The notes beneath the pieces were generated by a model. That model had not been told where the DNA came from, searched no databases, and saw only the letters and a list, made by a program, of their open reading frames with translations. Shown here piece after piece: positions 50,889 to 56,909 of a DNA stretch of 64,000 nt. The stretch spans positions 1 through 64,000 of the forward strand of contig JADCGQ010000004.1 in the NCBI GenBank assembly GCA_020248945.1, written 5' to 3'. The first letter of the stretch is position 1; every line of letters begins with the position of its first letter. The position numbers and the translations under genes were made by a program. The stretch comes from Rubrivivax sp. GTDB lineage: Bacteria > Pseudomonadota > Gammaproteobacteria > Burkholderiales > Burkholderiaceae_C.

Positions 50889-52013
50889 ATGAACACCCCC
50901 TCCCCGACCCCCGTGAGCACGCCCTTGAGCTATGAGCAAGCCGGGGTCAAGTACGAGCTCATCGATCCCCTGAAGGTGGCCGCCCAGCGCGCGGCGGCCA
51001 GCACCGCCGGCCACCTGGCGCGACACGCCTTCGAGGAGGTGACGGCCTCGCGGGGCGAGTCGGCCTATGTCGTGGACCTGGGCCACTTCTACCTGGCCAG
51101 CATCGTCGAGTGTCTGGGCACCAAGACGCTGGTGGCCGACGCGATGTGGCGCGAAGGCGAGAACTTCTTCGCTGCCATCGCGCAGGACACCATCGCGATG
51201 GCCGTCAACGACCTCGTCACCGTCGGCGCCACGCCGCTGGTGGTGCAGGCCTACTGGGCCGCCGGCGGCAGCGACTGGTTCGCCGACGGCGCGCGCGCCC
51301 AGGCCCTGGTGCAGGGCTGGAAGGCGGCCTGCGATGCCATCGGTGCCAGTTGGGGCGGCGGCGAAACCCCGGCGCTGGCCGGCATCGTCGAAGAGGGCCG
51401 CATCGACCTGGCCGCCAGCTGCACCGGCCTCGTCAATCCCAAGCCGCGGCTCACGCTGGGCGAACACCTCGGCCCGGGCGACGCCATCGTGCTGCTGCAG
51501 AGCAGCGGCATCCACGCCAACGGCCTGAGCCTGGCGCGCAAGCTCGCCGAGCGGCTGCCGCAGGGCTACCAAACCGAGATCGAGCCGGGCCTTCGCTACG
51601 GCCCCGCCCTGCTGGCGCCGACGCTGCTGTACAGCCCCGTCACCGAGGCCCTCTGGGCCGACGGCGTGCGCGTGCACTACGCCGCCAACATCACCGGCCA
51701 CGGCTGGCGCAAGCTGCTGCGCCACCCGAAGGCGCTCACCTACCGCGTGCACACGCTGCCGCCGGTGCCCCCGGTGCTGCGCTTCATGCAGCAACAGGCC
51801 GCGATGGACGACGCCGAGGCCTACGGCACGCTGAACATGGGCGCCGGCTTCGCCCTGTTCGTGCACGGCGACGACGCCGAGCGCGCAGTGGCCACGGCGC
51901 GGGCGCAGGGCATCGAGGCCTGGGTCGCGGGGCGCGTGGAAGCGGGCGCGAAGCAGCTGTTCATCGAGCCCATCGGCGTGCACTGGGGCGCCGAAGAGCT
52001 GCAATTGCGATAA
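50889..52013 (+). CDS. PurM-like protein (AIR synthase-related), diverged
   Basis: A 374-residue homologue of phosphoribosylformylglycinamidine cyclo-ligase. The fold-level matches are SYEQAGVKYELIDP, AMAVNDLVTVGATPLVVQAYW, WGGGETPALAGIVEEGRIDLAASCTGLV, LLQSSGIHANGLSLARKL and HYAANITGHGWRKLL. The nucleotide/metal motif of true PurM, SGTDGVGTK, is replaced by SIVECLGTK, so the key aspartate is gone. It is probably not the housekeeping PurM but a paralogue with a changed or unknown reaction. Its position next to dnaX and ffs looks like conserved gene order, from memory. Confidence 0.8.
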   Translation: MNTPSPTPVSTPLSYEQAGVKYELIDPLKVAAQRAAASTAGHLARHAFEEVTASRGESAYVVDLGHFYLASIVECLGTKTLVADAMWREGENFFAAIAQDTIAMAVNDLVTVGATPLVVQAYWAAGGSDWFADGARAQALVQGWKAACDAIGASWGGGETPALAGIVEEGRIDLAASCTGLVNPKPRLTLGEHLGPGDAIVLLQSSGIHANGLSLARKLAERLPQGYQTEIEPGLRYGPALLAPTLLYSPVTEALWADGVRVHYAANITGHGWRKLLRHPKALTYRVHTLPPVPPVLRFMQQQAAMDDAEAYGTLNMGAGFALFVHGDDAERAVATARAQGIEAWVAGRVEAGAKQLFIEPIGVHWGAEELQLR

Positions 52014-52141: not shown

Positions 52142-54565
52142 TCAGGCCCGCGACAAGGCCGTCACCGCCTGATCGCGCATGCCGCGCACAAGCACCAGCT
52201 CGGTTTCGCCCAGCACCAGAGAGTTGGCCTGCGCGCGGTCGGCGTAGATCAGGCCCACGGGCGAGCCCTTCAGCATCAGCGGCAGCAACAGGAAGGTGGG
52301 CGCCGCCACCTGCTCGCGGAACCACGCCGGCAGACGCGGGGCCACGGTGCGGCTGTCGGCAATCAGCAAGTCCGCGCCGCGCGCGCACACGGCCGAGAAC
52401 AGATCGGGCTGCCCCTTCGCGCGCAGCGCCACGCGGAACAGCGCAGGCAATTCCGCCGCCCCCTCGCCGATACCCACGCGCCCCACCAAGTGCTCGCCCT
52501 TCGCGTCGCGCAGGCAGAACACCAGGGTGCGCAGGTCGAGCGAGCGCTGCAGCGTTTCGAGCACCAGGTTGAGCACCTCGTTGGCGCGCATCTCGCGGCC
52601 GTTGACAGCCGTGCGCACGGTCTCCAGGCCACTGGACAGCCGCACCAGCGCGCTGCCCTCAAGCGGCACGGGCGGCGCGGCGATGGCCACGGTCGGCGCA
52701 TCGGCGGCCGCCTGCGCCTGCTGCAGCGCAGCCGGACTAGGGGGCGCCTGCAGCAGCCGGCGCGCCGCGGCACCCGGCGCCACGCTCAGGCCCATGGCCT
52801 GGGCCAGGTGCGACAGCCGCGTGCGCGCGCCGCTGGCCACCTGCAGCACGTCACGGGTCTCCAGGCCCAGCGCGGGCGCGTAGTGGTCGGCCACGCGGGT
52901 CAGTGCCTCGGTCTGCGCGTCGCCTTCGTGCAGCAGCATGGCATCGGTGAACTCGTTGGCGCCGCGCGCCAGCCAGCGCATGCGCTCCACGCCGCCGTCG
53001 GCGCGCGGATCGATGCGCCGCGAGGGCACCTCGCCGCCGGGTATCCGCATGGCCTTCTGCAGCGTCTCGGGCAGGCCCCAGGCGCGCGCCACGCCCACGC
53101 CCAGATCGTCGAGCGACAGGCCGAGCAGCTTCTTGGCCGCGACGTCGCGCGTCACCGCCTTCGGGCCGACCACGAGCTGCCGGATGCGCTGCGCCTCTTC
53201 GGGGAAGTAGTACTCGGTGAGCAGCCGGCCGAGGTTCTGGAACATCGCGCCGAGAAACGCTTCTTCGCCCTGGCGCGCCTGCGGCGTGAGATCGCTGGCC
53301 ATCGTGGCGGCCATCAGCGCGCGCAGGAACTCTTCCTTCAGCAGCGCCGCGTGGTCCTTGTCGTGCATGTGCTCGAGCAGGATGACCGACAGCGCCATGT
53401 TTCGGATGCTGGCCATGCCCACCAGCGCCACGGCACGCGACACGGTGCTGATCTGCTCGCCAGTGACGGCCGTGAAGTGAACGGTGTTCACCATGCGCAG
53501 CAGCTTGTTGGTGAGCGAGACGTCCTTCAGGATCTCATCGCTCAGCGTGCGCAGGCTCTCGGTGTCCGAGCCCGCCAGGCGCTGGATGCGCACCACTGAT
53601 GACGACAGCGCCGGAAAGTCCGACTTGTGGCGCATGCGCCGCAGCAGGAACTCCAGCGTCGCGTGGCTGGTGTCCAGCGTCTGGTGATCGGGGTTGAGCC
53701 AGTGCTCCAGCGCCTCGTGCAGCGCACGGGCGGTGTCGAAGCGCTGCGCGGCGTCGCGGCACAGCGCGCGCTGCACGATGGCGCGCAAGGCCTCGTCGAC
53801 ATCGCCACCGGCGGCGAACTTCAGGTCTTCGGTCTGCACGCGCTGGATGGCGCGCCAGGGGTCGCGTTCCTTCAGCAACGGGCCGCCGGAGAGCATCTCG
53901 CCGAGCATCACGCCGGCGGCGAAGACGTCCATCGCCGGCTGCGGGGCTTCGCCGCGCGCGGCTTCGGGCGAGATGTAGCCGGGCGTGCCGACGATGCGGC
54001 CGTCGTGCGGCTCGGCGCGGTCGTTGCCGCGCTGCACGCGGGCGGCGATGCCGAAGTCCATGACCCGCGGCCGGCCATCTCCTCCGAGCAGGATGTTGCT
54101 GGGCTTGAGATCGCAGTGCACGATGCCCTTGTCGTGCGCGGCGGCCAACGCATCGAGCACGCCGAGCATCAGGCCGACCGCCTGGCGCGCGGGCAGCCGC
54201 GGCCGCGTCTTCAGCATCGCCGACAGCGTGCCGCCCTCGACGTACTCGAACACCAGGTAGGGCTGGCCCGCGTCTTCGTCGGCCTCGAACACGGGCACCA
54301 CGTTCGGGTGCTTCAGCGTGCTGCAGGCTCGCGCTTCGTTCAGCCACTCGTCACGCGTCGCGGCATCGGCATGGGCACTCAGCAGCTTCAGGGCGACATC
54401 GCGCTGCAGGCGCGGATCGTGGGCCAGCCACACCACGGCCTGGGCGCCGCGACCAAGCTCGCGACGGAGTTCGTAGCGGCCGATCTGGCGCCCGCCGGCC
54501 ACGGCGCTGCCACCCGCGCCTGCGGCCGAACGGGGGCTTCCGCCGGCGACGACGGGCAGGCTCAT
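52142..54565 (-). CDS. Serine/threonine protein kinase fused to HDOD and GAF-like domains
   Basis: An 807-residue protein. Residues about 28-290 are a complete Hanks-type kinase: GRGAQAVVWLAHD (glycine loop), DVALKLLSAH (catalytic Lys), IVHCDLKPSNILLGG (catalytic loop, HCD rather than HRD), VMDFGIAARV (DFG) and GTPGYISPEAA. About 305-500 is an HDOD domain (LPTL-like DFPALSSSVVRIQRL, ILKDVSLTNKLLRMVNTVHF, VALVGMASIRNMALSVILLEH). About 640-807 reads as a GAF domain (VLNLVLETLQRSLDLRTLVFCLRD, LLLPLMLKGSPVGLIYAD). No transmembrane segment is seen. Its ATG overlaps the pseudokinase stop (ATGA), so the pair is coupled. Confidence 0.9.
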   Translation of the reverse strand: MSLPVVAGGSPRSAAGAGGSAVAGGRQIGRYELRRELGRGAQAVVWLAHDPRLQRDVALKLLSAHADAATRDEWLNEARACSTLKHPNVVPVFEADEDAGQPYLVFEYVEGGTLSAMLKTRPRLPARQAVGLMLGVLDALAAAHDKGIVHCDLKPSNILLGGDGRPRVMDFGIAARVQRGNDRAEPHDGRIVGTPGYISPEAARGEAPQPAMDVFAAGVMLGEMLSGGPLLKERDPWRAIQRVQTEDLKFAAGGDVDEALRAIVQRALCRDAAQRFDTARALHEALEHWLNPDHQTLDTSHATLEFLLRRMRHKSDFPALSSSVVRIQRLAGSDTESLRTLSDEILKDVSLTNKLLRMVNTVHFTAVTGEQISTVSRAVALVGMASIRNMALSVILLEHMHDKDHAALLKEEFLRALMAATMASDLTPQARQGEEAFLGAMFQNLGRLLTEYYFPEEAQRIRQLVVGPKAVTRDVAAKKLLGLSLDDLGVGVARAWGLPETLQKAMRIPGGEVPSRRIDPRADGGVERMRWLARGANEFTDAMLLHEGDAQTEALTRVADHYAPALGLETRDVLQVASGARTRLSHLAQAMGLSVAPGAAARRLLQAPPSPAALQQAQAAADAPTVAIAAPPVPLEGSALVRLSSGLETVRTAVNGREMRANEVLNLVLETLQRSLDLRTLVFCLRDAKGEHLVGRVGIGEGAAELPALFRVALRAKGQPDLFSAVCARGADLLIADSRTVAPRLPAWFREQVAAPTFLLLPLMLKGSPVGLIYADRAQANSLVLGETELVLVRGMRDQAVTALSRA

Positions 54566-56385
54566 CGCGTCAGCCCTGCGCGCAAGCCCGAACTCCGTCG
54601 CGCCGCACCGGGCGAAGCGGCTGGTTCGTCCAGCGGCGCCGGCTGTGTGAGCGGCATCGGCTCGGTCAGGCGAGCCTCCCCTCGCAAGGCGTCCTGCAAG
54701 TCGCGCAGATCGATGCCCAGCACACGGCCGTAGCGCTGAGCCACTCGCTGCAGGGCGGGCAGCGCCTTGGGCGCCGGCAAGGCCAGCGCGTCGACGGCCT
54801 CGTTGGCGCAACTGGCGCTGGCGCGCAGCAGGTCGTCGTCGCTGTCGGGGATGCGCACGGGCGTGTCCAGCGGCAGGCGTTGCATCAGCTTGAGTAAGAC
54901 CTGATCGAAGCCCCAGTGCCGGGCCACCGCCTGGCCAATGGCGTCGATGTCGGCGCCGAGCACCGCTAAGGATGCGGCCTCTTCGCTCATGCCGGATTCC
55001 TCGGGCTCGCCCTTTCTTGGCGAAGGCGCGCTCTGCATCAGGCGGGCGATTTGCTGCGTTTCGTCGCTGAAGTGGTAGTGCACCACAAGCCGGCCGAGGT
55101 TCTGCAGCAGCGTCAGCAGATAGACGACCTCGCCGTCGTAGCCGGCGGGCCGCAGCGCCAGCGCCGTACGCGCAGCGCGTCGGATGCGGTCGATCAGGGC
55201 GTCCAGGCGCGCGGCGCCGGTGTCGTCGAGCGGCCCCGGCCAGTCGCGCAGCGCCAAGGCCGAGCGCCGCACGCCGTCCAGCCCCAGCATCGCGATGGCC
55301 CGCCGCACCGTCAGCACCGGGGCGCCGCCGGTGCTCGCCTGCGAGCCGTTGGCCAGGCGCAGCATCTCGAAGCTGAGCGCGAAGTCCTCCAGCACCACCT
55401 CGGCGAGTTCGAAGGTGCGCTGGCTCTCCATCATCGTGAGCCGGGCCACCCGCGCCGCCGCTCCCGGGCCCGAGGGCAGCACCCCGGCGGTGCGCAGCCG
55501 GTCGGCCAGCAGGGCCAGCGGCCCGGCGCCCGAGGCGCCTTCGGACTGCAGCCAGCCCTCCAGCGCGCGCAGCAGCGTGCGTGCGTTGCGGTAGCGCTGG
55601 CGCTCCTGGCGGTCGGTGGCGCGGTTGACGATGGCGCGCAGCGGCTCGGCAATGCGGTGCGCCGTCTGCCAGGGCAGGCGGACGATGTCGCGGCCCAGCG
55701 GCGGCACGCGGTCGACGATGCGGCCGATGTCGGGCTCGTCGAGGGCGGGCGCGCCGACGAGCAAGCCGTGCAGCAGCACGCCCGCGGCGAGCACATCCCG
55801 TTCGGCGGCGGCCCGTTCGGCATGACGGCCGCTGTGGCTGGGCGTGTCTGCTGGCGCGGCGGCGGCGGCCTGGCGCGCCGCCAGCTCCGCCGCAATGGCC
55901 AGGCCGGCCACGCGCAGCTGGCCGCTGTCGCTGACCAGCAGCAGGAAGGGCTGCAAATCGTGGTGCGCCAGGCCGGCCTCGTGAGCGAAGGCCAGGCCTT
56001 GAAGGGCCTGCTGCACCAGCGCAGCGGCCTCGGGGCCTGGCATGCCGTTGGCGGGCTGGCGCTCGGTCAGCGTGGCGTCGGCCCGCGGGTCGTAGGCCAC
56101 GTAAGGCCAGCCGTCCTGCACGCCCGTGTCGACCACCGCGGCCAGCTGCGGGTGCGACAGCCGCGCCGCCTGACGCTGCACCTGCTTCCACTGCTCCAGC
56201 CCCAGGGCGTCGGCCGGCTGCACACGCGGCAGCACGAGCATCAATTCCTGGCCGCTGCGCGGATCGGCGATGCGCCAGGCCATCGTGCGCTCGCTCTTGC
56301 CGAGCAGGCGCAGCAGCTGCCAGCGGCCGAACCCACGCACGGCGGCGCTGCGAGGGGCGGCAGGGGCAGGCTGGGCGACGGGCAT
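54562..56385 (-). CDS. Pseudokinase-HDOD protein
   Basis: A 607-residue protein from ATG 56385 with the same kinase-HDOD layout as its neighbour but a degenerate kinase half. The beta-3 Lys position reads ELMLVLPRV (no Lys), the catalytic loop is LAHHDLQPFLLLVSD (HxD kept, Lys and Asn lost), and DFG is replaced by LRVAGLAIAAEL. The HDOD part has VARLTMMESQRTFELAEVVLED, SFEMLRLANGSQ and RRAIAMLGLDGVRRSALALRDW. It probably binds or regulates the active kinase. The start is uncertain: the frame is open to 56487. It is divergent from trxA by 194 bp. Confidence 0.85.
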   Translation of the reverse strand: MPVAQPAPAAPRSAAVRGFGRWQLLRLLGKSERTMAWRIADPRSGQELMLVLPRVQPADALGLEQWKQVQRQAARLSHPQLAAVVDTGVQDGWPYVAYDPRADATLTERQPANGMPGPEAAALVQQALQGLAFAHEAGLAHHDLQPFLLLVSDSGQLRVAGLAIAAELAARQAAAAAPADTPSHSGRHAERAAAERDVLAAGVLLHGLLVGAPALDEPDIGRIVDRVPPLGRDIVRLPWQTAHRIAEPLRAIVNRATDRQERQRYRNARTLLRALEGWLQSEGASGAGPLALLADRLRTAGVLPSGPGAAARVARLTMMESQRTFELAEVVLEDFALSFEMLRLANGSQASTGGAPVLTVRRAIAMLGLDGVRRSALALRDWPGPLDDTGAARLDALIDRIRRAARTALALRPAGYDGEVVYLLTLLQNLGRLVVHYHFSDETQQIARLMQSAPSPRKGEPEESGMSEEAASLAVLGADIDAIGQAVARHWGFDQVLLKLMQRLPLDTPVRIPDSDDDLLRASASCANEAVDALALPAPKALPALQRVAQRYGRVLGIDLRDLQDALRGEARLTEPMPLTQPAPLDEPAASPGAARRSSGLRAGLTR

Positions 56386-56579: not shown

Positions 56580-56909
56580 ATGAGCAGCGACCTGATCAAG
56601 CATGTCACCGACGACTCCTTCAGCAGCGACGTGCTGCAGTCGGACAAGCCGGTCCTGGTGGACTACTGGGCCGAGTGGTGCGGCCCCTGCAAGGCGATCG
56701 CGCCGATCCTCGACGAGGTCTCCAAGGCCTACGAGGGCCGCCTGCAGATCGCCAAGCTCAACGTCGACGAGAACCGCGTCGTACCGGGCCAGCACGGCAT
56801 CCGCGGCATCCCGACGCTGATGCTCTTCAAGGACGGCAAGGTCGCCGCCACCAAGGTGGGCTCGCTGTCGAAAGCGCAGCTGACTGCTTTTCTCGACGGC
56901 CATCTATAA
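56580..56909 (+). CDS. trxA: Thioredoxin
   Basis: A 109-residue thioredoxin 1: [20 protein letters not shown] with the redox [32 protein letters not shown] with the cis-proline, and [18 protein letters not shown] at the end. It reduces cytoplasmic protein disulfides with electrons from thioredoxin reductase. ATG 56580 follows a gcggagcc ribosome-binding site, and a CAAAAT at 56510-56515 is a -10 candidate. rho follows after a 223-bp leader, as in many proteobacteria. Confidence 0.98.

Follow-up and report, generated by a model that had tools for sequence, protein, structure and literature searches.

Two adjacent genes of Rubrivivax sp. encode paralogous proteins with a kinase-like domain in front of an HDOD domain; one of them, B, retains the motif set of a Hanks-type Ser/Thr kinase, whereas the other, A, is catalytically stripped yet conserved by purifying selection, also in genomes that lack B. 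Taken as a whole, the explanation that we consider somewhat better than even is that a B-type gene was duplicated and that A has turned into a scaffold or allosteric pseudokinase controlling its own HDOD domain.

An initial sequence-only reading of the window (the whole stretch of 64,000 nucleotides that was analysed) had described adjacent kinase plus HDOD genes overlapping by ATGA, and both open reading frames were recovered on the minus strand. By ORF, Pfam and alignment evidence, gene A (54562..56385) encodes a pseudokinase-HDOD protein of 607 amino acids and gene B (52142..54565) a Ser/Thr kinase-HDOD-GAF protein of 807 amino acids, the stop codon of A and the start codon of B sharing the four bases ATGA (54562..54565). 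The pair is flanked on the plus strand by genes at 56580..56909 and 50889..52013, which we take to be trxA and an AIR-synthase-like (PurM-like) gene respectively and which recur beside it; in loci of the family the flanks, presumably rho-trxA on one side and AIRS-dnaX-recR on the other, recur around the pair.

Both HDOD domains score above the Pfam cut-off of 22.9 bits, that of A (54883..55479; PF08668) with 66.1 bits and an E value of 4e-18 and that of B (53045..53614) with 106.5 bits and 1.6e-30. The kinase domain of B (53714..54475) matches the Pfam Pkinase model at 1.2e-45, and the kinase-like domain of A (55546..56334) does so at 1e-6, under the cut-off. However, 20 of 21 A proteins match the kinase model at E≤0.01 and a profile built from the 21 matches StkP across the domain at 1.3e-22, so that A is, as judged by sequence, a protein of the kinase fold. 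The GAF-like C-terminus that had been proposed for B (52154..52582) is better supported in the aligned set, where GAF is matched at E≤0.01 by 15 of 19 B proteins (best 1.3e-8), than in the window protein itself, whose score falls slightly below the Pfam cut-off (21.6 against 22.4 bits). AlphaFold gives this stretch a pLDDT of approximately 68–91, in a model of B that has a mean pLDDT of 68 and is poor in the N-lobe of the kinase and at the start of the HDOD domain; a PDB sequence search with the GAF region returned no match.

The catalytic motifs were compared by aligning the kinase domains of 83 A and 85 B proteins, those of the window among them, drawn from 250 family genomes; two of 85 A genes (those of G056 and G104) look frameshifted and were excluded from the motif and A-tree counts. 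These data clearly show that A has lost the β3 lysine (0/83, compared with 83/85 in B), the DFG aspartate (0/83 compared with 84/85) and, in most cases, the catalytic-loop asparagine (6/83 compared with 83/85), as had been read from the window, and that the missing residues are not to be found elsewhere in the alignment. The second glycine of the glycine loop is present in one of the 83 A proteins, and the APE-type motif is mostly gone; the A domain of the window likewise lacks the glycine loop, β3 lysine, catalytic asparagine, DFG and APE. What A does keep is the HxD aspartate (78/83, compared with 81/85 in B), and two places past it 70 of 83 A proteins have glutamine in place of lysine. B of the window has the glycine loop, β3 lysine, αC glutamate, HxD, asparagine, DFG and an APE-type motif, and lysine, HxD aspartate, asparagine and DFG aspartate occur together in all but four of the 85 B rows, in agreement with the full Hanks set initially ascribed to it; by these motifs B is a predicted Hanks-type Ser/Thr kinase. 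Its HCD, where 79 of 85 B proteins have HRD, means little, since HCD recurs in four of 39 distinct B kinases found outside the family but within the order, all 39 of which are canonical.

A and B are paralogues, 34% identical in an alignment that covers most of both proteins. In a tree of 188 HDOD rows A forms one clade, save for one very long-branched HDOD from the same genome inside it. It was found in at least 85 of 250 family genomes, a lower bound like all our A counts, as the list of matches reaches down to about 196 bits; in a sample of 200 genomes of the order, every out-of-family place listed at more than 100 bits to A matches B better. By these sequence matches, and within the samples taken, A is seen solely in this family. 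B is more widespread: at E≤1e-55 it matches in 75 of the 200 order genomes, 72 of them outside the family, with matches spanning kinase to GAF in 51 of the 72 (manual count). It also matches in 12 of 185 genomes of the class, two of which are the window's own genome and another from the family; of 200 genomes sampled from the phylum, these same two were the only ones to match. The 34% identity, the A clade and the better fit of out-of-family places to B together point to a tandem duplication of a B-type gene within the family, after which A would have lost both the GAF domain and catalysis. Named relatives of A are Rubrivivax, Leptothrix and MAGs or strains labelled betaproteobacteria, Burkholderiales or Pseudomonadota; a kinase-bearing B lies beside A in 20 of 21 (one of them cut by a contig end), and in the remaining one, L262, no B kinase was found in frame.

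Among the matches listed for the 250 family genomes, 60 have A and a kinase-bearing B, 25 A alone, 23 B alone and 142 neither. An obligate complex would have A and B always together, and this is not what these genomes show, lone genes making up 25 of 85 A genomes and 23 of 83 B genomes (24 of 84 if a B-like match in G224, left out of the counts, is included). The absence is none the less far from random, with an odds ratio of 14.8 (P = 4e-19, in a statistic that ignores relatedness). Two of the B-only genomes, G129 and G186, carry a B with broken kinase motifs, and a third, G243, has HRN. Where both genes occur their order is fixed: in 59 of 59 two-gene loci fetched, plus the window, A comes first and B next on the same strand, with a spacing of −119 to +105 bases and, under the start-site rule of this analysis, a 4-base overlap in 22 of the 59 other pairs. 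All 60 two-gene genomes have an adjacent pair, the sole separate copy being an extra B in G204.

This arrangement bears on two alternatives. The sequence-only reading had taken A to be the regulatory subunit of B, i.e. a dedicated partner that switches the kinase on or off allosterically, and the invariant order and strand, the strong co-occurrence and the fact that A is dead yet conserved would all suit such a role. As stated the claim is not supported, since 25 of 85 A genomes have no kinase-bearing B (four of them have a kinase-less HDOD-GAF protein) and 23 of 83 B genomes have no A; moreover, the A tree calls for 11 or more changes in the presence of B, eight of them forced by well-supported branches, and A is not relaxed where B is missing. 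We therefore regard this role as unlikely, while noting that the co-occurrence also counts against our favoured explanation, as an A fully independent of B would not need it. Conversely, A and B may stand together merely through their tandem birth and serve separate pathways, which would explain the adjacency and the finding of each gene alone. Such a coincidence seems rather improbable to us, given that 60 of 60 two-gene genomes have kept the adjacency over a tree with so many changes in B presence and that 22 of 59 pairs overlap by four bases.

The A-only state appears to be genuine. Of the genes searched for, AIRS is the first to follow A in 14 of the 25 A-only genomes, at a distance within 0.4 kb in ten and of 0.6–1.9 kb in four; no B match intervenes, and B is thus missing from its usual place. 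Contig ends were considered as the cause and rejected, both because AIRS follows A in these 14 genomes and because a looser search at E 1e-10 added no B: in all 25, no full-length kinase-HDOD-GAF protein was found among the matches listed. In addition, completeness is 90% or higher and contamination 5% or lower in 22 of these 25 genomes. Four A-only genomes carry elsewhere a kinase-less HDOD-GAF protein that falls in or close to the B clade, and three more (G074, G170 and G248) have a distant match to the HDOD-GAF part.

We then examined the selection acting on A. Nei–Gojobori dN/dS values, which are rough for these high-GC genes and for a set in which some genomes enter several pairs, were 0.04–0.495 for the kinase part of A in 24 pairs, much like B, and at most 0.502 for its HDOD part. 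Broken down by context, the kinase part gave 0.07–0.41 in six A-only pairs, 0.13 and 0.31 in two mixed pairs and 0.04–0.50 in 16 pairs with B; the possibility that A is a decaying pseudogene was ruled out, values being below 0.5 in 24 of 24 pairs. The rate of A relative to AIRS and DnaX was 2.77 without B (n=10) and 2.78 with B (n=26; P = 0.79), in a comparison confined to genomes with both reference genes (10 of the 25 with A alone and 26 of the 60 with A and B). This unchanged rate, together with the purifying dN/dS in A-only genomes, indicates that A has a function for which B is not required. We also correlated residual evolutionary distances, which gave 0.40–0.62 between A and B; these values fit coupling of the two proteins, and so the regulatory-subunit role as well, but they are confounded, as a background gene correlates with the B HDOD domain at 0.59 and the pairs are not independent, and we set the test aside as suggestive. 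The residual distances of the B GAF domain do not track A, as would be expected if the two proteins served separate pathways.

Conservation in A has moved from the active site to the C-lobe helices that precede the HDOD domain. This was seen from mean positional entropies in 83 A and 82 B rows, three decayed B rows being excluded. The stretch from the catalytic loop to DFG, which is the tightest part of B (0.68), has a mean entropy of 1.86 in A, whereas αH–αI is the tightest part of A (1.23, compared with 1.60 in B) and αG, the loosest part of B (1.87), is middling in A (1.55). The loosest parts of A are the activation loop (2.89), αC (2.05) and the catalytic loop (1.86), and its A-specific near-invariant residues in αG–αI include R236, N254, Y265, R269 and G277. 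The HDOD domains of A and B have 20 conserved positions in common, with paralogue-fixed differences between A and B at E340/K354, W382/L397 and H438/Y453. Such a pattern of entropy and HDOD residues would be the trace expected of a scaffold or allosteric module beside an HDOD domain. The retained HxD aspartate (78/83) and the glutamine two places on (70/83) could alternatively mean that A has exchanged phosphotransfer for some other chemistry, as SelO and SidJ did according to PMC12599244. We consider this highly improbable, since the glycine loop, β3 lysine and DFG aspartate are gone, the asparagine is retained by 6 of 83 A proteins, and conservation in A is among its lowest in the catalytic and activation loops.

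On our favoured explanation, an older kinase-HDOD-GAF gene of the B type, which is found across the order, would have been duplicated in tandem to give A and B. A, having lost its GAF sensor and all catalysis, would act as a pseudokinase, by scaffolding or allostery, and would use its preserved C-lobe helices to control the HDOD domain behind them; B would still be a Ser/Thr kinase gated by GAF and equipped with the same HDOD domain. The HDOD domain would be the common output of both, since it is retained throughout, whereas there are lineages that lack kinase activity, lineages that lack the entire kinase domain and lineages that lack GAF. Where both genes are present, A and B are probably co-expressed and mixed as heterodimers; A would also function without B.

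As to what this output might be, links to motility or c-di-GMP are reported for the HDOD proteins SadB, GsmR, CJ0248 and I2285 (PMC6543031, PMC11004494, PMC9040570), and on account of these published ties we looked for the flagellar motor gene fliG. It was present in 107 of 108 carriers of A and/or B (59/60 with both genes, 25/25 A-only and 23/23 B-only) compared with 20 of 40 genomes with neither, the 40 being the first in catalogue order of 123 genomes without an A match at E≤1e-15 and including hardly any with kinase-less HDOD-GAF proteins. The sole carrier without fliG, G104, is a genome that is 76% complete. When labels were shuffled within genome-size bins, the one fliG-less carrier observed compared with 11 expected, and none of 20000 shuffles, which ignore kinship, was as low; the contrast was significant in three of four size bins, with 47/47 compared with 3/4 (P = 0.08) among the largest genomes. 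The output of A and B probably bears on flagellar motility, although a similar contrast might be obtained with whichever signalling gene motile species carry. No flagellar genes were found near A and B of the window in the stretch read. In G204, the extra kinase-HDOD-GAF gene (L184, 234–4698) has cheZ approximately 1.5 kb away, and fliG is on the same contig.

The neighbourhoods of lone B genes were considered as a clue to function and rejected, as the neighbours are mostly unrelated and recur only among relatives. Leads, each beside or close to a single B gene, are an EAL gene, a response regulator, an HDOD-only gene and cheZ; in G061 (L163, 6129–7049) a short HDOD-only gene lies immediately upstream of the lone B. 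Downstream of the A-B pair in G193 (L087, 11311–12807) there is a third HDOD-GAF gene that has no kinase.

At its most specific, the proposal would be a dead/live heterodimer in which a ligand sensed by GAF acts via kinase B and, with the dead twin A, sets the state of HDOD domains that work as a pair in tuning flagellar motility, with A also running alone after loss of B as an undescribed family of HDOD pseudokinases; we offer this full picture as a conjecture that has some chance of being right but is more probably wrong in one part or another.

Among known systems, PknB/StkP-type bacterial Hanks kinases are the best solved relatives of the B kinase domain and share all catalytic motifs, but B is fused to HDOD and GAF and the PASTA-kinase model matches it in the kinase part alone. 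The bacterial pseudokinase families ActPs1–3, GLW, CP1, DYD and DLHK have, like A, lost catalytic motifs and kept the fold, and are described in the available parts of PMC12599244 as being of unknown function; two of them, DLHK and CP1, are there said to be without membrane parts and to occur in proteobacteria. By the same descriptions A would stand apart from them: CP1 has a link with COG3899, helicase or nuclease domains often accompany DLHK, and GLW lacks HRD (PMC12599244). EssB/YukC offers a precedent for a dead kinase fold acting as a scaffold, as is proposed for A, but it is a type VII secretion membrane protein for which those parts tell of no HDOD domain or living twin (PMC12599244). 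The word HDOD is absent from that pseudokinase review (PMC12599244). SadB, GsmR, CJ0248 and I2285 share the HDOD domain with A and B; unlike A and B, they have no kinase domain named in the portions consulted (PMC6543031, PMC11004494, PMC9040570). HDOD and kinase do both occur in 16 open-licence papers, PMC11004494 and PMC6416229 among them. The initial suggestion that no pair of this type had been characterized was borne out by a search of the open-licence literature, which by title and start of abstract gave nothing joining HDOD with pseudokinase or describing such a pair, and in which no paper had HDOD, protein kinase and pseudokinase all together. As far as these searches show, the pair is undescribed, though its make-up is not a strange one: A is the dead paralogue of a bacterial kinase and has HDOD as its partner domain. 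The locus amounts to a natural experiment, in which living and dead twins of one architecture adjoin and lineages exist without A, without B, without the kinase domain or without GAF; if the fliG link holds, a phenotype is available to assay.

Loss of the kinase is not confined to A. Kinase-less HDOD-GAF proteins make up 13 rows scattered in the HDOD tree, implying at least ten changes, two of which are forced by well-supported branches. The four non-canonical B rows are a second copy in G220 and those of G129, G186 and G243 (HRN), and one further out-of-family gene, in G369, has NFG and HGD; together these indicate that kinase decay in the kinase-HDOD-GAF architecture arose more than once. 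The gene in G369 (L277, 7079–8734) is the second copy of a tandem, with NFG for DFG and HGD for HRD, the downstream twin being here the one that diverges, whereas both copies of a tandem B-type pair in G263 are intact. G220 (L150) holds a separate, independent tandem of B-type genes, an intact kinase-HDOD-GAF gene and, behind it, a copy in which the kinase motifs are ruined but HDOD and GAF remain, and in the HDOD tree this ruined copy groups with the B-type protein of G129, which likewise lacks key motifs. Finally, the kinase-less protein of G039 (L176) and the HRN kinase of its sister G243 (L170) have the same neighbours on both sides, as if the change of the catalytic aspartate had preceded loss of the kinase domain.
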